The notes below the pieces were generated by a model, which worked only from the letters and a program-made list of their open reading frames with translations, was not told the origin of the DNA and made no database searches. Shown here one piece after another: positions 24,598-34,335 of a stretch of 64,000 bases of DNA. Each line of letters begins with the position of its first letter. Position 1 is the stretch's first letter. The position numbers and the translations under genes were made by a program. Source of the stretch: Stenotrophomonas maltophilia. GTDB taxonomy: Bacteria; Pseudomonadota; Gammaproteobacteria; Xanthomonadales; Xanthomonadaceae. The DNA is taken from NCBI RefSeq assembly GCF_006974125.1, contig NZ_CP037858.1, positions 2,232,001 to 2,296,000 on the forward strand. The letters run 5' to 3'.

Positions 24598-25293
24598 TCA
24601 CGGCACCCGCGCGCAGACCCATACGCGCACCTCCGCAGCGCCAACCAGGCGCAGCGTCTCGGCCACCTCCATCACCGTACTGCCGGTGGTCATCACGTCA
24701 TCGACCACGGTCAGCCGCGTGGGCACCGGACCACGAACAGCGAACGCATCGAACAGATTCTCCCTGCGCTGTTCTGCGCTGCGCTCGGACTGCGGCGCGG
24801 TGTGGCGGCGCCGGTAAAGCCCCTGCCAGACCGGCATCGGCAACAGGCGGCACAGTTCGGCGGCCTGGTTGTAGCCGCGCTGGCGCAGGCGTCGCCCATG
24901 CAGCGGCACCGGCACCAGCGGCGCGCACGACCAGGGGGGCGGGGCGCGCAGCATCAGCTGCGCGAGCAGGCGACCTGCCGCCAGATCCTGATGGAACTTG
25001 TAACGCACCAACAGCTGATCGACGGGGGGAAGGTACAGCAGGCTGGCATGCGTGGCGGCCTGCGGCGGTACCTCGTCGCGGCAAATGCCGCAGACGATCA
25101 GGGCGTTCCCGGGTAGCGGGAGTGCACAGCGCAGGCAGGCACGACCGGCCCAAGGCAGTCCGGCAAGGCAGTCGCGGCACAGGTCAAGTTCATCGTGGCC
25201 CGGCTCGCCACAGACCAGGCAGCGTAGTGGCAGCAGTAGCTGCAGGAGCTTCTGCGGGCGGACGATTTCCGTTGCGAGTGAAGATGTGAGCAC
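24598..25293 (-). CDS. comF: ComF-family phosphoribosyltransferase-like protein
   Basis: 231 residues from ATG 25293. An N-terminal zinc finger is formed by CLVCGEPGH, CRDC, CLRC and CGIC (residues about 25-75). A type I phosphoribosyltransferase domain follows, with LVPVPLHGRRLRQRGYNQA and the PRPP loop LTVVDDVMTTGSTVMEVAE. ComF is needed for natural DNA uptake in several bacteria, where it works with late competence proteins and ssDNA handling. Here it borders the RHS island; from memory comF and bioB are close neighbours in related genomes. Confidence 0.88.
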   Translation of the reverse strand: MLTSSLATEIVRPQKLLQLLLPLRCLVCGEPGHDELDLCRDCLAGLPWAGRACLRCALPLPGNALIVCGICRDEVPPQAATHASLLYLPPVDQLLVRYKFHQDLAAGRLLAQLMLRAPPPWSCAPLVPVPLHGRRLRQRGYNQAAELCRLLPMPVWQGLYRRRHTAPQSERSAEQRRENLFDAFAVRGPVPTRLTVVDDVMTTGSTVMEVAETLRLVGAAEVRVWVCARVP

Positions 25294-25386
25294 GCCCCAG
25301 CATCAACCCGCTTCGACTCGTTCTCCATCCGATGACACGGCGTTGTCGTGTAGGGAACAGGCGCTATGGACTCCGTGGACCCCACT

Positions 25387-25410
25387 CTGCCGGTCGCATT
25401 CGACCGGCAG
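25387..25410. repeat. Perfect palindrome at the edge of the RHS island
   Basis: CTGCCGGTCG and CGACCGGCAG form a 10-bp stem around CATT. It lies 21 bases beyond the stop of the minus-strand RHS gene and about 90 bases from the comF start. It may be a terminator without T-tract or a REP-like element; no GTAG head is visible. Confidence 0.55.
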
Positions 25411-25430
25411 GGGTCAGCATCGCAGCGAGG

Positions 25431-27275
25431 TCAGTTTGATCTTTCCAGAATTCTTGCCGGGCGCGCCAGCGAGTCGAATGACTGGACCTCCCAGACGAAT
25501 TCGCCACCATCCTGGCGTGTCGTGACTTTCCTCAGTGGAATGAAGTTCTCCAATGGCCATGCCTGGAAGCCCCTCCCAACCTGCTTCACGCGGATACCAG
25601 GCCGCTGCGGATACCCCGCCGCGACGGTCTGATACTCACGGATAGTCTGCCCCGCAGAAGACGTTTCCCTTGAGTTCAAGAACGGAAGGTACACATCAAG
25701 AATGTCAGTCGATGGCTCGACATCGAACTTCGCACCAAAATCCTCTCTCAATATCTTGCCCTCAAGGCCATCACGGCCCGAAGCCCCTGTGAACGTGAGT
25801 TTCCACTGCCCCTGCGGATCGCGCGCGGCCATGACGTTCACGGGTCCAGCGTAGGATCCGCCGAAACGTGCCGCAACCTGATCCGCGGGAAGTCCCGTTC
25901 GGTAGAGGTACGTCCAGCTCTGCGCAGGCAAACCCGGTCCGGACAGGGTCTTCTTCCTGAGCGACTGCGACGTCAGGTGACATGGGTCCCAATACTCGTA
26001 GACCGGCGGTGCCATCCAGCAGATATCAGCAACGGTGTTCTCCCTTATGCCGTCCATGTTGACGAAGACGAATTCACCTTTCGCCCCGGACGGCGACACC
26101 ATGCGCGCAGAGTATCCGCGCCGCCCACCAGAGAAGATGTTGTCGCAGTAGTAGTTAAACCCCTGTGGTGAATCATCCGTTACATAGGTCAGGCACATCT
26201 TCCGGATGTCCTCCATGTCAAACGACCAGGCGGATCCATCCGGGAATCCCGCAGAAGCAAGGGATCCCAGTGGGTTCTCATTCGACGCCGGCCGGTAGTT
26301 GTAGCTCCACCTCCGTACCCCGCCATCCACATTCGTCGAGATTGCCGAGATCCGGTCCTTCCCGTCATATGCAAATGAGAGGTTTCGTCCATCGCTTGCA
26401 GTAATCGACTGGAGTCGCTTCCCAGACCACGCATAGGTCAGACTGTTCCCATGCCGGTCTTCAATCCGCGTCGGATACATGGACACTTCGTAGCGGAAGA
26501 TCGTCCAACCACCGCTGTCGGATAGATCCCAGTTGTTGTCCACGACAAACCAATCAAACCAGTACTTTGTGCCGTCAGGCGATATCGCGAGGAACGCTTC
26601 TCCCGTAACGCCATTCCGGGTTTGTGACAGGCAACTGATTGCCCAGTTGCTCCGCGTTACAATCGGGTACGAACCACCCGCTGGCGCAAGCTGAAATCCG
26701 GCGTCTCGTTTCAGAAGTTCTTCCCCGCCTCCTGGAGCCGACTCCAGAAAGACACCGGGCCACCACAATCCGGGGTCAACTTGATTCTTCGGGCTCATCA
26801 ATGCACTTGAGAAAGCCGAACATCTTGCGTTGGGGTTCGATCCCTCGACCTGCCACAGCTCATGTTCCTTTCCAGGTTCAAGCCGTGTGTTCGCTTTCAG
26901 CGGTAGGCCGAAGGTCGAGATACGAGGAATGAACATCTCCCAGTCGCCAAAGCGCTGCCAGCCCAATCCCAGCGCGGCATACCTGGAAACATCGAACTTC
27001 CGGACAACCGCGATGTCCGGCCCTGTGCCTTCAAGCCGGATGTCGCTCTGAAGGAAAACGGTACTTCCACTTGAAGGGGAAACGCTCTCTCCAAACACCG
27101 AATCCGCGGTCTGTGCCTGAAGGCCCGAAGCGCCCACGAGCCTCATATGAGCGGGGAACACGCTTGGTTGAAATGACGGATCCCCTGGAAACCTTTGAGC
27201 GTAAGCCGCAACAGGCAGCAGCAGGCAGAGGGCGACAGCACATGCGGCAACATCAACAACCGACTTGAACTTCAT
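25431..27275 (-). CDS. RHS-type secreted protein, N-terminal third of the RHS architecture only
   Basis: 614 residues from ATG 27275. A signal peptide (MKFKSVVDVAACAVAL...AAYAQ) leads to FPGDPSFQPSVFPAHM, then blocks typical of the start of long RHS/YD proteins: DIAVVRKFDVSRYAALG, RFGDWEMFIPRIS, YWFDWFVVDNNWDLSD, YPTRIEDRHGNSLTYAW and ITASDGRNLSFAYDG. It ends VWEVQSFDSLARPARILERS-Asn-stop, the point where a full-length RHS protein would continue into its YD-repeat middle. No core-closing motif (RYYDPxxGRFxxxDP) is present. Codon use is less GC-rich than core genes. Either it is a truncated RHS gene or one subunit of a split shell; see the matching pieces at 31943-32968 and 27721-31527. Confidence 0.75.
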   Translation of the reverse strand: MKFKSVVDVAACAVALCLLLPVAAYAQRFPGDPSFQPSVFPAHMRLVGASGLQAQTADSVFGESVSPSSGSTVFLQSDIRLEGTGPDIAVVRKFDVSRYAALGLGWQRFGDWEMFIPRISTFGLPLKANTRLEPGKEHELWQVEGSNPNARCSAFSSALMSPKNQVDPGLWWPGVFLESAPGGGEELLKRDAGFQLAPAGGSYPIVTRSNWAISCLSQTRNGVTGEAFLAISPDGTKYWFDWFVVDNNWDLSDSGGWTIFRYEVSMYPTRIEDRHGNSLTYAWSGKRLQSITASDGRNLSFAYDGKDRISAISTNVDGGVRRWSYNYRPASNENPLGSLASAGFPDGSAWSFDMEDIRKMCLTYVTDDSPQGFNYYCDNIFSGGRRGYSARMVSPSGAKGEFVFVNMDGIRENTVADICWMAPPVYEYWDPCHLTSQSLRKKTLSGPGLPAQSWTYLYRTGLPADQVAARFGGSYAGPVNVMAARDPQGQWKLTFTGASGRDGLEGKILREDFGAKFDVEPSTDILDVYLPFLNSRETSSAGQTIREYQTVAAGYPQRPGIRVKQVGRGFQAWPLENFIPLRKVTTRQDGGEFVWEVQSFDSLARPARILERSN

Positions 27276-27496
27276 CAGTGAAGCACCAGATTTTCCATGA
27301 GAAGCGAAAGCTTCGGGAAGCCAATCCAGCCGCAGAGATGCGGCTGCAGATCGCCATCGACATGATCAGGCAGCACTAGCGCTCTGCTCATGTATCGCCA
27401 GGCTCAGATGCATCGAAGCGGCCCGATCGGCTCAACGCGCGGCGAACTCATCCGATGAAATAGCCCACCGACTCAATCCCTACATGTATCTATTAT

Positions 27497-27724
27497 CTAT
27501 GCTTGGGACTTTGAAGCCCTGTATCGCCGGAAGATCCGTATGACAACCAGCAACAAAACCACCGTCGCGATGACATGCAGGATGGTATACGGGCGTCCTG
27601 ATACCATGGCACCTACCGTTTGATACAAGGCAAACAGAAAAAGGAGGCCCCAACAGACCAAGCTTACAAGATTGGCCACCGGGCCATTGAAATAGTTACG
27701 ACCGTTCACCAAAGACAACCTCAC
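27497..27724 (-). CDS. Small two-helix membrane protein, candidate immunity protein
   Basis: 75 residues from GTG 27724; the GTGA overlaps the RHS stop codon (27721-27723), so translation is coupled to the RHS gene. Two hydrophobic helices, VANLVSLVCWGLLFLFALY and TILHVIATVVLLLVVIRIF, are joined by a short polar loop, and the C-terminus is basic (RRYRASKSQA). A small gene directly after and overlapping an RHS toxin gene is the classic immunity position, and an inner-membrane protein would suit a toxin acting on the membrane. No family match is recognised. Its lower GC fits an exchangeable toxin-immunity cassette. Confidence 0.6.
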   Translation of the reverse strand: MRLSLVNGRNYFNGPVANLVSLVCWGLLFLFALYQTVGAMVSGRPYTILHVIATVVLLLVVIRIFRRYRASKSQA

Positions 27725-30700
27725 TTGGTCTTTTCCTGACTATCCTTGAATGGATCGGAGAATTTCTCCACAAGCGGCTTTACCGCTTCGGTGAACCCTT
27801 TGACCGTTCCATCAATATTACTTAGAGCCTTTGCGGCACCATGGAACGTCACAACTGTTCCAACCGCCTTTCCTGCCTTTGCGCCATCCTCGCCGCCGAA
27901 GAAACCGCCAGCTTGCTCAAGAGAGGAAGGCCGCTCTCTTCCATCCAAGGCGCTCAGTACCCCGCGCAAACCATCGACAACCTGCACGCCATCCTTCAGT
28001 CCCCCCACGGCAAAGGCCACATCCAGTACGGGACCATCCATCGGGCTGGAAATACCTACGAGGGCACCCATAGCATAACCTGAGGCTCCGATACTTCCAT
28101 AGACAAGATCCGCCCCGCCGAAGACACCAGCCGTCAGTCGCTCGGACCTGCTCATGGTTACGGGCGTTTCCTTCACATAGATCCCCGTCAGAATCTTCTC
28201 GTCGATGACGTTGTAATGATCCCTGGACTGCCGGCCATCGGGGTCGGTGAAGTTGTAGGGGCTGTTGTCCGCATACCGATAGCGGTTGAACGCGCCCACG
28301 GGACTGCTGTACGCGGTCAATGGATCCACCGAAAGGAACCGCCCGATCTGCGGATCGTAGTAGCGCTGCTGCATGTACACGAGCCCGGACGCGGCATCGG
28401 AGACATGGCCGGTGTATCCCACGCCATCGACAGCCTTGCCGATGGACTGGCCATAGGGCTCGTACTGTGTCCGCTCGGTCACCTGCCCTGCCGCATTGCT
28501 GGTTGCCACCGGGCTTCCCAGCGAATCCACGTGCTGATAGGTGACCACGCCACCCTGGCGCTTGGCCAGCAGTCGGCTGCCCAGCATGATGAACTCCGCC
28601 GCGCCTCCGTCACGTCGCTGCTCATACAACAGCTGTCCACCCTGCCCATAGAACGAGCGCAGCCGATCACCGCTACCATCGGAGGTCACCGTCCGACGGC
28701 CGGCGGCATCGTACTGGTAGCTTTCCAGACCCTGGATGGTGCGCAAGCGGTTGCCGAGATCGAACTCGTGGACCCGACCATTCTTGCTGCGCAGATTGCC
28801 CTGGGCGTCATAGGACAGCCCGATGATCGTCGCGCCATCCGCATTGAGGATGTTGGCAAGGCGATTGCGCTCGTCGTACCAGTAGCGGTAGTCCTTGACG
28901 CCGCCCAGTGAGGCGGACAGCAGGTTGTCGCGCGCGTCGTAACTGTAGCGATGCCAGTGATCACCGCCGAAGCTGGCCGAACCGGCAGCAACCAACCGCT
29001 GGCCAGCATCGTACTGCAACGTGCGATCGAAGCCGGCACCTTGCTGCAGATCTGCAATCCCCGTGACGTTGCCGATCGCGTCGTAGCTGTAGCGATAGGA
29101 CATGGCGCCCGCGTCGGTCTGCTGATACGGAAGTTGCCGCGCGTTCAACTGCGTCGCATGGACAATACCGTTGCCATAGCTGAAGGACTGCACCGACCCG
29201 GTCGGGTGGTAGCGCACACCGGAGGCGTAACTGACACCGCCCGCGGAGACACTTAGCGGCTGCCCCTGGGCATTGTTGGCGTAGCTGACTGTCAGACCGC
29301 CCGGATAGACCACGCTGGCCAGCGCGCCCTGCGCGTCGTAACCGTAACCCATCGACCAGGTTGGGCGACCGGTGCTGGCCGCGCTTTCGCCCACCAACAG
29401 GTTGCGCTTGTTGTACTGGAAGGAGTTGACGGTGGTCTGCCTGCCCTGGTCGTTCCAGGTGGTGACGCTCTGTACTTCGCCACTGTTGCGATAGCTCAAG
29501 TCCTGGTCGCCGTTGCGATCAGGGAAGCGTATCCGCACAACACGATTGAGTGCGTCGTAGGCACGATCCACACGGCGCCCCGATGCCGAGGCCTCGGCGC
29601 GGTTGCAGGCACCGGTGTCGGTCAGATCAAGCCCGGACGCCGTCCACGCAATGTTACCCGCGGCATCGTAGTCCACCACGGTAGCGCCAGTTTCCGGCTC
29701 GATGGTCTTGCACAGCCGCTGGTTGCCATCGTAGACATAGGTCCGCGTAACCGCACGGGGCGACTGCCCGCGGACGACCGACACCGTATGCGTATTCGAT
29801 GTCGCGGTCGCGCCGCGTCGATCAGTGGCCACCGCATGGAATCTGTAGCTCCCTGCACCCAGGCCGGAAACCGTGAACTCGTAGGGTGCGGCGCCAACCA
29901 CTGCGACCTGATTCCCATCGCGATAGAAAGCGACCTGCGCCACGGCATCGTCCGGATCGCTGGCGTTGGCAACCAGCCGGATCTCTCCCGGACTCTCCAC
30001 CTGCACGTTGCCAGGTGATACCAGCGAGATCGTCGGTGGGCTGTTGACCGGCACGCTGAAGGTACCGCCGTTTGCCAGCACATTGTTGCCGCCGCCGACC
30101 GGCGATATGCCATGCAGATAGATCTTCTTGCCACCGTGATCGCGCACCATTGCGTCGGTGATCGGAATGCTGAAGCGGTACGCGCCACCACCACCCTTGC
30201 ATTGATTGTTGATGGCAGGCTCGCTACCCAGGTTTGCGGTGGCGATGCCATAGCCCACACCCGTTCCATACGGACCTCCAAGATAGAGGTGAACCGGAAT
30301 CGAACCGTTGAAGTGCGTTGCGCATGCCCAACCAAAGATGGCACCGTTGGCCACGCCGGTGTCTCCAATCACGCGTGAACCATAGATCGTCCGGGCTGGC
30401 GTGGTGGTCACCGCGCCGCGGGTATCGCGGGCCTGCACCTGGAGCGTGTGCGGCCCCTCGGGAATATCGCTGTAGGTCCATTGATAGGGTGCACCACTGG
30501 TTGCCCGGGCATTGCCGTCGACCAGGAATGTCACCTGCGATACGCCGTCATCGGGATCGGACGCATTGGCCGAGATCAGCGTGGACCCACCCTCCGCCAC
30601 CACGGCACCGGCCGCAGGCGCAGTGAACGCGACCGACGGAGGCGCGTTGTAGGGAATTCGGAAATTGCCCGAACCACCTATGGTCAGGTTGGGCGCGCCC

Positions 30701-31527
30701 ACCGGCGAGATGCCATGGATGTAGATGGGCTTGTTGGCATGGCTGACCGTCCAGTCCCCCTGGATCGGAATATAGAAACGATAGGCGCCGCCCGCTGCTC
30801 CGCAGGCGGTGGCGACGCCAGGTTCGCTCACGCTGCCGGCGCGGTAACCACCCACCATGACCGCACCGTTGGCACCCGCAGCGCCGCCCAGGTACACATG
30901 GACGTCGATCGGATCATTGATGCCGCTGGAGCAGGCCCAGCCGGTGATCTGCCCGTTGGTGATGCCATCGATATTGCCGCGGATGGTCGATCCGACGACG
31001 TTGACCTGCACGTTGCTGGAGCTTGGGCCAAACCAGGTCACCCCGTCCTGCACCATACGCCACTGGAAGTTGTAGCGGCCCGCATTCCGCGGTGCAGTGA
31101 CCGTGAAATTGTAGGTGGCGGTCTGCCCTTCGCCGACGCTGCCCGGGGTAGGAACACGGTGCAGGCCCCATGTCCAGTTGTCGCCCGGGTTCTGCGAGCC
31201 CAGATTGACGTTCTGCGCCGCCGTCCACACCAGCGTACCGGTGTTGCGCATGGATACGCTGACGTTGTAACGCTGGCCCACCACCATCGTCGTGGGAACG
31301 CTCTGACCGGCAAAGATCGACGCGTGATATTCGGGTTCGGGAGGAAGCTCCGGGAACTCCGGGCAGAATGCCCGCAGCGACGACGAAGTAGCCGCGGCCG
31401 CAGACCTCAGCATGCGAGGCTCTTCGCAGAAAGGGGCGGCCTTGGCAGTGGAAGCTACAGCAAAACCAAGAAGCAGACCGAGCGCAGGCAACGCCCGCAC
31501 CACAGCAACGACAACGTACTTCAACAT
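27721..31527 (-). CDS. RHS polymorphic-toxin-like protein with Ig-like modules, YD-repeat core and variable C-terminal tip
   Basis: 1268 residues from ATG 31527 (AGGA nine bases upstream; ATG 31536 lies too close to it). Order: signal peptide (VVVAVVRALPALGLLLGF...STAKA); an NBR1-type Ig-like domain (about 60-170); two copies of a roughly 100-residue unit (about 180-285 and 390-490, each with a GWAC motif and IYxHGISPVG), each followed by a bacterial Ig domain (PPSVAFTAPAAG, PPTISLVSPG); YD repeats from VTRTYVYDGNQRLCK (about 590); and RHS core RYYDPQIGRFLSVDPLTAYS closing at DPDGR (1095-1099). The last about 169 residues are a Gly/Ala-rich, partly hydrophobic tip (GGADLVYGSIGASGYAMGAL) of unknown activity. 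The YD part starts where the usual RHS middle ends, so the first two thirds of a normal shell are replaced by Ig modules. No PAAR or VgrG domain is seen. Confidence 0.85.
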   Translation of the reverse strand: MLKYVVVAVVRALPALGLLLGFAVASTAKAAPFCEEPRMLRSAAAATSSSLRAFCPEFPELPPEPEYHASIFAGQSVPTTMVVGQRYNVSVSMRNTGTLVWTAAQNVNLGSQNPGDNWTWGLHRVPTPGSVGEGQTATYNFTVTAPRNAGRYNFQWRMVQDGVTWFGPSSSNVQVNVVGSTIRGNIDGITNGQITGWACSSGINDPIDVHVYLGGAAGANGAVMVGGYRAGSVSEPGVATACGAAGGAYRFYIPIQGDWTVSHANKPIYIHGISPVGAPNLTIGGSGNFRIPYNAPPSVAFTAPAAGAVVAEGGSTLISANASDPDDGVSQVTFLVDGNARATSGAPYQWTYSDIPEGPHTLQVQARDTRGAVTTTPARTIYGSRVIGDTGVANGAIFGWACATHFNGSIPVHLYLGGPYGTGVGYGIATANLGSEPAINNQCKGGGGAYRFSIPITDAMVRDHGGKKIYLHGISPVGGGNNVLANGGTFSVPVNSPPTISLVSPGNVQVESPGEIRLVANASDPDDAVAQVAFYRDGNQVAVVGAAPYEFTVSGLGAGSYRFHAVATDRRGATATSNTHTVSVVRGQSPRAVTRTYVYDGNQRLCKTIEPETGATVVDYDAAGNIAWTASGLDLTDTGACNRAEASASGRRVDRAYDALNRVVRIRFPDRNGDQDLSYRNSGEVQSVTTWNDQGRQTTVNSFQYNKRNLLVGESAASTGRPTWSMGYGYDAQGALASVVYPGGLTVSYANNAQGQPLSVSAGGVSYASGVRYHPTGSVQSFSYGNGIVHATQLNARQLPYQQTDAGAMSYRYSYDAIGNVTGIADLQQGAGFDRTLQYDAGQRLVAAGSASFGGDHWHRYSYDARDNLLSASLGGVKDYRYWYDERNRLANILNADGATIIGLSYDAQGNLRSKNGRVHEFDLGNRLRTIQGLESYQYDAAGRRTVTSDGSGDRLRSFYGQGGQLLYEQRRDGGAAEFIMLGSRLLAKRQGGVVTYQHVDSLGSPVATSNAAGQVTERTQYEPYGQSIGKAVDGVGYTGHVSDAASGLVYMQQRYYDPQIGRFLSVDPLTAYSSPVGAFNRYRYADNSPYNFTDPDGRQSRDHYNVIDEKILTGIYVKETPVTMSRSERLTAGVFGGADLVYGSIGASGYAMGALVGISSPMDGPVLDVAFAVGGLKDGVQVVDGLRGVLSALDGRERPSSLEQAGGFFGGEDGAKAGKAVGTVVTFHGAAKALSNIDGTVKGFTEAVKPLVEKFSDPFKDSQEKTK

Positions 31528-31942
31528 GCGAAGCATTCCTTGAATCGCAGTTTCACCCGCCTCCCGCGCGCTGCGCCGTTGGCCCCCTTGTGCGCGTATC
31601 GGCGTGGACGGAACCGGAGTCGACCCTGACCTTGTTCCCCAGGCAGGATCCGCAGCCACATCGCGGCATCGGTCGTCGATCACGAAAGATCGCAACGCGC
31701 TGTATATCACATCGGTCAGGCCCGCCGCACGAGCGCAGAGCATCGCCCTGCCGGTTGCGTTGCCATCTTCCGCGCAGCCATTGCCTGCTGTAGGCTGCTG
31801 CGGCCAACGGAGGAGCAGCCTGCAACGCAGGTCGCGAGACGCACTCCAGTCATTGCAGAAACGGGGGCATGCCAACCGGCCCAGCGCGCGCCGTGGAGGT
31901 TGGTATGTGCAGGCAGGAAGATGGGCTCACGAGGAAGTGGGA
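31528..31942. other. Divergent intergenic region inside the RHS island
   Basis: 415 bases between the divergent RHS genes. Frames crossing it lack ribosome sites and protein-like composition. An inverted repeat AGGCTGCT (31792-31799) / AGCAGCCT (31814-31821) is present. An AT-rich TGTATATC at 31701-31708 could hold a minus-strand -10 box, but no good -35 accompanies it. Confidence 0.45.
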
Positions 31943-32968
31943 ATGCATAATCGATCGTCACGTCGCCGGAAGCTCGTGCTTCTTCTGGCATGCATCACCG
32001 GGCCGGCAGTGGCCCAGCAGTACTCGCGTACCGAGCAGGTCACCTATCACGACAACACCAGCGCATGGGTGCTGGGCCAGGTTGCCACGCGCACCATCAA
32101 TGGCGTCGTCGCCGAGTCGACCACCTACGACGCAGCCACGGCCCTTCCGGCAACGCGCAGCGAGTTTGGCATCCTCAAGACCAGGCTTTCCTACAACGGT
32201 GATGGCACGCTGGCCAGCAGCGCCGACGGTGCAGGCAACACCACGCGCTATGGAAACTGGAAGCGCGGCATACCGCAGTCGATCACACGCCCCGACGGTA
32301 CCACCCAGATCGCCGCAGTCAGCGACCAGGGCTGGATCACGCAGATTACCGACGAAAACGGCAGCATCACCACCTACGGCTACGACAGCATGGGCCGGAT
32401 CAACCGGGTTACGCCTCCGGCTGGCGATACGGTCAACTGGACTCCGACGACCCGGATCTTCGAGTCCGTCAGTGGCGAAGAGCATGGTATTGCAGCAGGC
32501 CATTGGCGGCAGACTGAAACCACCGGCAATGCAGTCACTGTGACCTACTATGACGCCCTGTGGCGACCGCTTACCGTTTGGCAGTACGACGCTGCACGTG
32601 TGGCCGAAAGCCAGAAGTACACCCGCTTCGCCTATGACAGCCAGGGCCGTAAAGTATTTGCCTCCTACCCTTCAGCTGCTGCCAACCCAAGTACGGGCGT
32701 GTGGAGCGAGTACGACGCGCTTGGTCGGTTGACGGCGTCCAGCCAGGACAGCGAGCAGGGCCTGCTGATCACTACCACGGCCTATGGGGCCGATGCTTCT
32801 GGAGCGTTCACCCTGGTGACACAACCAGGAGGTCTTCAGACGCGCACGTGGTACCAGATGTTTGCAGAGCCGAACTACGAAGCCCCCGTCAAAGTACGCA
32901 AGGCGGATGGATCCATCACGACCATTGCCCGGGATGTTTTCGGGAAGCCGGTCTCAATCAGCCGCTGA
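31943..32968 (+). CDS. RHS-type secreted protein, middle (YD-repeat) third of the RHS architecture only
   Basis: 341 residues from ATG 31943 with GAGGAAG six bases upstream. A short signal peptide (MHNRSSRRRKLVLLLACITG...AVAQ) leads straight into YD-repeat sequence: SRTEQVTYHDNTSAWVLGQV, ITDENGSITTYGYDSMGRI, TVTYYDALWRPLTVWQYDA and WSEYDALGRLTASSQDSEQG. It ends IARDVFGKPVSISR-stop, the point where standard RHS proteins continue into an ARxYVYDGNQxLCK block; that block opens the YD part of the divergent gene at 27721-31527. Its own ribosome site and signal peptide argue against a simple degraded fragment. Function alone is unclear. Confidence 0.72.
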   Translation: MHNRSSRRRKLVLLLACITGPAVAQQYSRTEQVTYHDNTSAWVLGQVATRTINGVVAESTTYDAATALPATRSEFGILKTRLSYNGDGTLASSADGAGNTTRYGNWKRGIPQSITRPDGTTQIAAVSDQGWITQITDENGSITTYGYDSMGRINRVTPPAGDTVNWTPTTRIFESVSGEEHGIAAGHWRQTETTGNAVTVTYYDALWRPLTVWQYDAARVAESQKYTRFAYDSQGRKVFASYPSAAANPSTGVWSEYDALGRLTASSQDSEQGLLITTTAYGADASGAFTLVTQPGGLQTRTWYQMFAEPNYEAPVKVRKADGSITTIARDVFGKPVSISR

Positions 32969-33016
32969 ACTCAAGCTCCAGGCCGATCCAGGTTCGAGCG
33001 CTCGAGCGGAGGGCCT

Positions 33017-34186
33017 TCACCGCGTCGGCGCAGGCTTCGCATCCACCCGGGTGCGATACACCATGTACGGCGTCTGCCGGCGATCCACGCCACCATTGAA
33101 GCCGGCCTGTCGATGCAGCTGGTTGGCGGTGAAGTACAGATAGCCGTCCGGCCCCATCGACAGCGTATCCGGCCACAGGATGCGCGGGTCGTGCACCACC
33201 GTCGTCCATCGCCCCTGCGCGTCGCGGGCATGGATGGCGTTGTGCTCGTAATCGCTCGCATACAGCCGGCCGTTGGCGTCCATCTCCATGCCATCGGAGG
33301 CGCCCTTGTCGCCCAGGTCGACCACAGCTGCCGCCAGTGCCGCCTCACTCACCTTCGGGTCGCGCAGCAGCGCGGTCGGCACGCTGTACAGATGACGACT
33401 GGACAAGGGCGTGTAGAACAGCGTGCCGCCATCGGGCGACAGGGCGATGCCATCGGCGGCCACGGTAAACGGCGCCGATGAACCATCGGCGTTACGCAGC
33501 CGCATCTGCTGCCCTTCCACGATCGGCACGAAGGCGGCATCGGCCGAGGTGGATACGTGGCCGACCAGTCGCTTGGACGCGACGCCAGTGGCGAGGTCGA
33601 TCACGATGATGCCGCCGATACCGCTCAGCGACGAGTCGGTCACGTAGGCCACGCCCTCGCGGCCAACCCGGAAATCGAAGCGCACATCGTTGACATAGGT
33701 GCGCGCGTCGATGACGTTGGCCGGGAACACCAGCGTCTTGACCACGGTGTTGGTGGCAAGGTCGATCGCCACCAGTTTGGCACCTCCGGCCTGTGGCGCA
33801 GAGAACCCGGGCGCGGCGGTGTCCAGCACCCACAACCGGCCCTGGCCATCGGCCACCACGCTCTGCACGCTGATGAAATGGGCCGCCGGATCGGGACCGT
33901 CCTTGCGGTTGATGCGCGCATCCGGATAGGGAACGGCGCGGCCGTCGCGCCATTCGGCCACGCTGTAGTCCACCTCATCGCCCCAGCGCGGGAAGTTGAC
34001 GAAGATCCGCCCGGTCTCGGACACCGCCACGCTGGTGGGCATGGCACCTTCGAAACGCGCCACCGGTTCGAGGGTGCCGATGCTGCGCTCGCTGGGCAGC
34101 AATGGGGTACCGGCGATCGCCAGCATGGGGGAACTGGCCAGGGCCAGGACGGCAGCCGCCAGGCTGCGGATACGGCAGTTGATCAT
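33017..34186 (-). CDS. Secreted yellow/major-royal-jelly-protein family beta-propeller
   Basis: 389 residues from ATG 34186; upstream in-frame codons would put a long non-signal stretch before the signal peptide MINCRIRSLAAAVLALASS. Family blocks include VAVSETGRIFVNFPRWGD, LWVLDTAAPGF, RTYVNDVRFDFR, AYVTDSSLSGIGGIIVIDLA, ADGIALSPDGGTLFY and SDGMEMDANGRLYASDYE, forming a six-bladed propeller. Bacterial members are often labelled L-dopachrome tautomerase-related or lactonase-like; the activity here is unknown. It converges with the RHS middle-fragment gene with only 48 bases between stops. Confidence 0.8.
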   Translation of the reverse strand: MINCRIRSLAAAVLALASSPMLAIAGTPLLPSERSIGTLEPVARFEGAMPTSVAVSETGRIFVNFPRWGDEVDYSVAEWRDGRAVPYPDARINRKDGPDPAAHFISVQSVVADGQGRLWVLDTAAPGFSAPQAGGAKLVAIDLATNTVVKTLVFPANVIDARTYVNDVRFDFRVGREGVAYVTDSSLSGIGGIIVIDLATGVASKRLVGHVSTSADAAFVPIVEGQQMRLRNADGSSAPFTVAADGIALSPDGGTLFYTPLSSRHLYSVPTALLRDPKVSEAALAAAVVDLGDKGASDGMEMDANGRLYASDYEHNAIHARDAQGRWTTVVHDPRILWPDTLSMGPDGYLYFTANQLHRQAGFNGGVDRRQTPYMVYRTRVDAKPAPTR

Positions 34187-34282
34187 GGTCGCGGTCTCGA
34201 TGCAGGTCCGGGTGCAGCCCCGGCGTGGGTGCATCTTCAGCGGCGCACCTGGCATCGGGTAGACGGTGCAACGGGGAATCAG

Positions 34283-34301
34283 CTTCACTGCAGGAGTGAA
34301 G
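34283..34301. promoter_or_regulatory. Inverted repeat upstream of the yellow-family gene
   Basis: CTTCACT (34283-34289) and AGTGAAG (34295-34301) form a perfect 7-bp inverted repeat with a 5-base centre, about 100 bases upstream of the gene's start. It could be an operator or a hairpin at the end of clcA, whose stop is farther right on the same strand. Confidence 0.3.
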
Positions 34302-34335
34302 ATTGCGACCTGATTGATCCTGTTGATCAAGGTAA

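Follow-up and report, generated by a model that had tools for sequence, protein, structure and literature searches.

The locus and its genes

The DNA considered here, called the window, is a stretch of 64,000 nucleotides of Stenotrophomonas maltophilia, taken from a complete chromosome of 4,554,224 bases (NCBI RefSeq assembly GCF_006974125.1, contig NZ_CP037858.1, positions 2,232,001–2,296,000). It contains three genes, A, B and IgC, each of which encodes a signal peptide and one sector of a rearrangement hotspot (RHS) shell, the three sectors being carried by a single chain in intact relatives. The features of the locus are listed below (aa, amino acids; Ig, immunoglobulin; ORF, open reading frame).

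25431..27275, minus strand: A, 614 aa, signal peptide and N-terminal third of the RHS shell
31943..32968, plus strand: B, 341 aa, signal peptide and middle of the shell
27721..31527, minus strand: IgC, 1268 aa, signal peptide, Ig-like arm, C1, C2 and variable tail
29758..31350, minus strand: Ig-like arm of IgC, approximately residues 60–590 (Big_7, N_BRCA1_IG)
28561..29754, minus strand: C1, the YD-repeat part of IgC, approximately residues 592–989
28231..28560, minus strand: C2 (also called D), the closing RHS core of IgC, approximately residues 990–1099, up to DPDGR
27724..28230, minus strand: variable tail of IgC, 169 residues past DPDGR, presumed toxin
27497..27724, minus strand: ORF of 75 aa, candidate immunity gene, two hydrophobic segments by eye
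31528..31942: divergent intergenic region between IgC and B

Gene B lies on the strand opposite to IgC and diverges from it, and A is located downstream of IgC. In the following, a stroke between two letters marks the joint at which a chain is cut. Protein A ends in ARPARILERSN, at the recurrent A/B site. Protein B begins after its signal peptide with QQYSRTEQVTYHDN, at the same A/B site, and ends with RDVFGKPVSISR, at the B/C1 site. The IgC frame starts with the ATG at 31527, and its YD part begins near residue 592. An earlier interpretation made from the letters and their open reading frames (the sequence-only reading) had described these pieces, and its coordinates, reading frames and quoted ends were correct for all three. 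Its statements that each piece has its own signal peptide and that one has a good ribosome site also agree with inspection by eye, in which the N-termini of A, B and IgC all resemble Sec signal peptides, GAGGAAG precedes the ATG of B, and AAGGA that of IgC. No clear ribosome site was seen by eye before A.

RHS identity and order of the three pieces

The membership of the pieces in the RHS family was assessed by profiles and by structure. YD/RHS repeats reach 52 bits in B and 74.7 bits in IgC (Pfam, cut-off 22), and 20.7 bits, slightly under the cut-off, in A. In IgC the TIGR03696 Rhs_assc_core model scores 73.8 bits against a cut-off of 32.5, and a DPxG-like motif is visible by eye at the core. 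The arm of IgC, about 530 residues ahead of the YD part, holds two Big_7 stretches and an N_BRCA1_IG match slightly below the cut-off of Pfam. The AlphaFold models of A (predicted local distance difference test, pLDDT, 73; predicted template modelling score, pTM, 0.74) and of B (pLDDT 87, pTM 0.61) match solved RHS shells; the shell likeness of IgC comes from sequence comparison alone. On the solved shell 8h8b, the structure match places A at 146–477 and B at 560–836, and the sequence alignment places IgC residues 656–1098 at 717–1151. The order A-B-C on 8h8b is correct, and the registers of B and C overlap, which may be an effect of the repeats.

The pieces were also aligned end to end with 18 intact single-chain relatives of the A-B-C-D arrangement, and all three matched on 17 of them. 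The extrapolated gap between A and B has a median of 2 residues (range -24 to 45), and that between B and C a median of 7 residues (range 3 to 9). The outlying A/B values (-24, -20, -18 and 45) belong to A alignments that end approximately 100–160 residues before the end of A. The identities to the intact chains are modest, at 24–35% for A, 44–51% for B and 40–50% for C. A, B and IgC tile consecutively onto their one-chain relatives. This upholds the claim of the sequence-only reading that the pieces are consecutive, non-overlapping RHS segments, and the overlap on full-length RHS proteins that would have spoken against it was absent on the 17 chains.

Recurrent cut sites in Lysobacteraceae

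The window and the fetched loci served to build one profile each for A, B, C1 and C2, and these were applied to loci L037–L142 and L143–L226 (L denotes a locus, G a genome and P a protein). The breaks of the window itself defined the profile edges, except that the C1/C2 edge was placed at the break seen in L037/L038. For a further site inside B the profile edge was not preset, and the distances between leader and domain provided a second check on the edges. Loci L040 and L041, which represent other RHS families, were not counted, and genes truncated by a contig end were excluded from the start or the end counts. Cutting occurs at four sites, namely A/B, inside B, B/C1 and C1/C2. In 319 genes (exact duplicates removed, relatives kept), the distance to one of the four sites is at most 8 residues for 137 of 180 internal starts and for 126 of 151 internal ends, against about 5% expected by chance.

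Such breaks are accompanied by export signals. In the window and L037–L142, a signal peptide was found on 101 of the 108 pieces beginning at a site and on none of the 29 beginning elsewhere (Fisher P 2e-23, kinship ignored; calls by our own rule-based predictor, near-duplicates retained). By site, the counts are 35 of 38 at A/B, 3 of 3 inside B, 23 of 23 at B/C1 and 40 of 44 at C1/C2, and at least L037 and L038 among the seven misses are leader-like by eye. In addition, there are 87 adjacent gene pairs in which one piece resumes where its partner stops, 24 of them with an overlap of 4 bases. With breaks that recur at fixed positions and signal peptides that follow them, the pattern is more than chance.

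The proportion of cut shells was taken solely from a genome scan of named organisms, the family-wide fetch having mostly picked loci with shorter frames, which favours cut loci. The scan sample consists of the best 78 loci for the lone-B profile and may itself favour cut forms; 8 of these loci are irregular or at a contig end. In the 70 regular loci, the gene holding B is ABC in 19, BCD in 18, ABCD in 18 (two of these counts include a doubled A match), AB in 9, BC in 5 and B alone in 1, so that the shell is cut in 52. Cutting at four fixed sites is common in the RHS shells of Lysobacteraceae, a result beyond what the earlier reading of a single locus could see.

The chain ends were examined at three of the joints. 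First, at A/B, the A chain stops at most 15 residues past its domain in 40 of 45 genes, and the leader of B stands directly before the domain in 39 of the 40 measurable genes, with a median of 6 residues from its hydrophobic core to B. The remaining A chains run on past their domain (L123, L132, L138 and L139, and L144 by 17 residues), and more than 100 residues precede B in 6 of the 45 genes starting at A/B (the window, L084, L112, L116, L128 and L194), for the window B solely through upstream extension of the frame. Second, at B/C1, the AB chain ends within 15 residues of its domain in 21 of 21 genes, and in 20 genes the downstream CD chain has 325–708 residues ahead of C1, as measured from the start of the frame. 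Third, at C1/C2, it is the upstream chain that is extended, by at least 98 residues in 52 of 52 genes (median 453), and the leader stands directly before D, within 20 residues, in all 62 measurable genes. In the examples scanned with Pfam, the arms are named as Ig-like (Big_7, N_BRCA1_IG, PKD) or fibronectin type III (Fn3)-like; for L037 no name was obtained.

The window trio combines the A/B and B/C1 cuts. The sole other locus seen with this combination is L173 (Luteimonas sp. Y-2-2-4F), in which A is followed by a lone B and then by the contig end.

Several single loci depart from these common forms. In L044, L046 and L047 the cut inside B lies near profile position 220 of 313, and in L044, the one example scanned, an Ig-like arm is found on the chain downstream of it. 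A lone A that continues past the shell part is present at L132:9612-13166 and in proteins P0127 and P0140. The matches in L132 are Fn3-like, as if an arm could occupy other joints. In genome G020, L043 is a second A/BCD-like locus near that of L042, with BCD split in two frames; decay coexists with intact copies in this genome.

Persistence of the separate pieces

The homologues of lone B in the protein database are mostly about 340–360 aa long, and the 27 that were fetched have a signal peptide and the same end. The database matches were restricted to 0.55–1.75 times the query length and hence include no fused relatives; in the genome scans, no fused B exceeding 60% identity was found. In a phylogeny of 140 B domains, ten lone B proteins, that of the window among them, form a clade that has full support in the Shimodaira–Hasegawa-like approximate likelihood ratio test (SH-aLRT). 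The intact, two-part and three-part versions are interspersed on this tree. Parsimony requires 47 changes between six cut states, whose labels include a few broken genes (L043, L134); the tree is a quick one with 42 of 136 inner branches weak, and its strongly supported branches alone force 4–7 changes per cut state. Of 63 near-invariant columns of 117 fused B domains, the ten lone B proteins keep 55, the column variability of lone and fused B is correlated (Spearman 0.64), and the end of the lone B chain, an edge strand, is conserved. Lone B is an old gene.

Lone B also appears linked with IgC in other genomes. The lone B proteins P0012, P0009, P0030 and P0055 share their largest-contig sizes (14,658, 135,527, 37,934 and 12,852) with the IgC-like P0147, P0149, P0187 and P0197, and a shorter B match of 299 aa, P0068 (164,378), is likewise paired with the IgC-like P0206. 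Such pairing is a fingerprint of the records, including source type, and not a reading of the contigs themselves, and it suggests the linkage. The database clusters comprise 22 member sequences for B, 8 for A and 61 for IgC, the last being a cluster with another toxin tail. Among the sources of the lone A proteins listed are Xanthomonas, Lysobacter, Luteimonas and Pseudoxanthomonas.

The host genome contains a second, scattered set, which carries the C1/C2 cut: a lone A at 255 kb (L057), a BC gene at 1.90 Mb (L037) and two lone D genes at 1.75 and 3.38 Mb (L038, L039). Its counterparts in G005, another species of the genus, are scattered as well (L058, L048, L221, L222). Between the host and G005, the ratio of nonsynonymous to synonymous substitution (dN/dS, Nei–Gojobori) is 0.10 for A, 0.14 for BC, and 0 and 0.26 for the two D genes, the dS of the D pair with the value 0 being only 0.03. 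Two-gene AB and CD pairs elsewhere give 0.05–0.22, the A genes of L042/L043 give 0.27, near saturation, and the pair L050/L052 (AB) was left out. These other cut pieces of the family are under purifying selection. The pieces also tend to be found with their partners: in 91 genomes of the genus, a lone D, counted by hand among the matches listed as a match starting at query residue 380 or later, is present in 25 of the 26 genomes with a gene ending at C1/C2, all except G072, and in at least 13 of the 65 others. A gene starting at A/B is present in all six complete-lone-A genomes seen (G000, G005, G020, G051, G064 and G072).

Presumed toxin tail and candidate immunity gene

The tail of IgC after DPDGR has no match in Pfam. 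Protein P0145 of S. maltophilia (61 member sequences) is 99% identical to IgC over residues 60–1110, and the tail of the window IgC shows no real similarity to the tails of P0145, P0146, P0147 and P0149. Such variability resembles that of live polymorphic toxins, and the tail is presumed to be a toxin. The start of the 75-aa ORF overlaps the stop of IgC (GTGA). It has no Pfam family at its cut-off and is a candidate immunity gene.

Surroundings of the trio

The trio lies within 25294–33016 of the window, the interval between genes that we take, by eye, to be comF-like (24598–25293) and lactonase-like (33017–34330). The locus is bounded by comF and by a gene recognised in the same way as bioB. 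The comF–bioB distance is approximately 10.6 kb here and approximately 0.1–6.6 kb in 22 other Stenotrophomonas genomes with both genes; G010, where comF is apparently interrupted, was left aside. The position of the trio is a variable insertion site. In G010 (C14:187655-213351), the comF-like gene is apparently split by about 25 kb, its two match parts lying far apart. Two terminator-like sites are located between IgC and A, where 0.6 would be expected. In PADLOC, A, B and IgC all remain without a match.

Related systems

An example of an RHS weapon that depends on several genes is the bacteriocin Bcn-A of Xanthomonas perforans. According to the available parts of its description, it comprises ORFA (1,398 aa, RHS), ORF2 (124 aa), ORF3 (100 aa), ORF4 (290 aa, with a signal peptide and identity to RhsA/WapA) and the immunity gene ORF5, and killing is abolished by the removal of ORFA, ORF2 or ORF4 (PMC7259588). 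The number of required genes is three in the abstract and four in the introduction, the activity is found in the supernatant and is lost in an xpsD mutant, and in those parts the authors describe a multi-component bacteriocin and not a split shell (PMC7259588). Bcn-A resembles the window family in combining an RHS protein with a second RHS-like protein that has a signal peptide; in Bcn-A both are needed, and an immunity gene lies alongside.

Eleven loci of genera g7 and g18 (L099–L107, L118, L131) show an ABC gene of 1,386–1,441 aa followed by a D with a signal peptide, and two small genes lie between ABC and D in L118 and L100. The two small proteins at L100:11369-12092 and L118:10273-10952 have leader-like N-termini by eye, like Bcn-A ORF2 and ORF3. 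Two of the published primers match the L118 ABC gene with a single mismatch apiece, A3 at its 3′ end and A5 in frame at an internal site. A5 further matches eight other loci, where one or two positions differ, and ORF5F matches only L107, with two mismatches. Bcn-A is a probable relative, in which ORFA would be ABC and ORF4 would be D. Its cut would then lie at C1/C2 (ABC/D), whereas the window is cut at A/B and B/C1 and keeps C1 and C2 in one chain.

The division of an RHS shell between chains has a precedent. In the TcB/TcC cocoon of the Tc (ABC) toxins, as given in the accessible part of the source, one RHS shell is made of two polypeptides with the toxin at the C-terminus of the second (PMC8765631). 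This is the two-chain precedent, and the cut sites and the proposed three-part shell would extend a known kind. The RHS effectors of the type VI secretion system (RhsA, RhsP, Tse5, Tse15) have the shell fold and the closing core in common with the window pieces but, unlike them, consist of one chain, are delivered by that system and are not known to have a Sec signal peptide. Orphan RHS C-terminal cassettes are displaced modules of core and toxin, as is lone D; unlike these cassettes, the lone D described here mostly has a signal peptide right before the core (40 of 44). No account of an RHS shell in three separately exported parts was found in the open-access literature, so far as its accessible text extends.

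Proposed assembly of a shell from exported parts

A, B and IgC are probably separately exported parts that assemble into one RHS toxin shell. Between the two explanations offered by the sequence-only reading, the split shell is favoured by the signal peptides at the cuts, the purifying selection on the other pieces, the lone-B clade and Bcn-A, and the same evidence disfavours the silent donor cassettes. We infer the assembly of the chains from their anatomy, from selection, from recurrence and from one published genetic result in a probable relative; the site of assembly, type II export, toxin activity and immunity are steps that we also infer. In the proposed mechanism, A, B and IgC would each be exported by Sec, and each would form one consecutive sector of a spiral beta-sheet shell. 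Past the inner membrane, the chains would dock edge to edge in the order A-B-C, and the C2 core would seal the shell with the variable toxin at the C-terminus of IgC inside. The particle would probably leave the cell through the type II secretion system, and the producer would owe its protection to the 75-aa membrane protein whose gene follows IgC.

The alternative that survives best concerns the choice of partners. A and B of the window may be spare parts that pair with the BC gene at 1.90 Mb and the D genes at 1.75 and 3.38 Mb, besides or instead of IgC, and we give this a modest chance. In this genome there are two A genes, one B, one BC, one CD and two lone D, equivalent to two shells with a choice of D; genomes G064 and G005 each have two A and one gene starting at A/B, and L092, L125 and L095 show a shuffled or divergent order of the genes. 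Against such an exchange, A, B and IgC adjoin in the window, and lone B apparently shares contigs with IgC elsewhere.

It is rather improbable that A and B are silent donor cassettes or recombination remnants in an RHS locus of which only IgC, or nothing, works. Polymorphic toxins are described as swapping domains with standalone cassettes in the available part of one review (PMC3482391), 29 fragments without a signal peptide exist, and the trio occupies a variable insertion site with pieces of different nearest relatives. Remnants of this kind fit poorly with the clean edges and the contrast in signal peptides between sites and other positions (101/108 versus 0/29), with the ten-protein lone-B clade and its 55 of 63 conserved columns, with the dN/dS of 0–0.26 in the scattered cut set, and with the requirement for the parts in Bcn-A.

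That the pieces are exported but act apart, as adhesins, decoys or inhibitors of RHS shells, with no common shell, is very unlikely. The Ig-like and Fn3-like arms suggest binding functions, and each chain has its own export signal, but the sectors are consecutive and non-overlapping, lone B retains a conserved edge strand at its end, and the tree mingles intact versions with two-part and three-part ones. Two other origins were rejected. One broken gene is ruled out by the signal peptides and the intact frames of the pieces, and no long direct or inverted repeat joining the pieces, as a repeat-mediated inversion would need, was found among the largest repeat families listed (20 of 54 and 25 of 56).

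Several observations weigh against the assembly of the three chains into one shell. The nearest relatives differ among the pieces, which the sequence-only reading could not see: for the window C1, the top nine matches are without exception CD genes, which make up 22 of 129 C1 domains; the two best matches of B are BCD and BC genes, and those of A are two lone A genes, both followed by mixed matches. Judged from these relationships, the trio is a mosaic of family modules, and modular recombination also took part. The structural registers are inexact, A and B overlapping on 7q97_A and being separated by a gap on 8qjb_A. No sigma-70-like promoter was found by scan before A or between B and IgC. 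The dN/dS values describe other cut pieces of the family and not the window trio, decay does occur, as seen from short fragments of A in G022 and G047, and G072 (L064, A/BC) has an incomplete set, with no lone D among the matches listed. The link to Bcn-A is drawn from sizes, order and one primer, its sequence having been compared through published primers only; the primers for Bcn-A ORF2–ORF4 match none of the loci searched, and two published ORF4 peptides are absent from them.

Implications for RHS weapons

The proposed assembly of A, B and IgC may be part of a wider arrangement. It is conceivable, though doubtful at present, that the RHS weapons of Lysobacteraceae form a kit of exported sectors (A, B, BC, AB, C) and toxin lids (D) with four joints, which occur together or scattered, are exchangeable, and are assembled outside the cytoplasm. 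Such a kit would allow several toxins to be loaded into shared shell parts within one genome. If the shell is assembled as proposed, a structure seen as one chain, or as the two chains of Tc toxins, becomes a self-assembling kit with standard joints. This would explain the need of Bcn-A for a second RHS-like gene, and the naturally separated parts would allow tests of how secreted RHS toxins fold and in which place. What is annotated as an RHS fragment when it stands alone may be a working subunit, and the many relatives cut at the same few places suggest that assembly from parts after export is frequent in such weapons.

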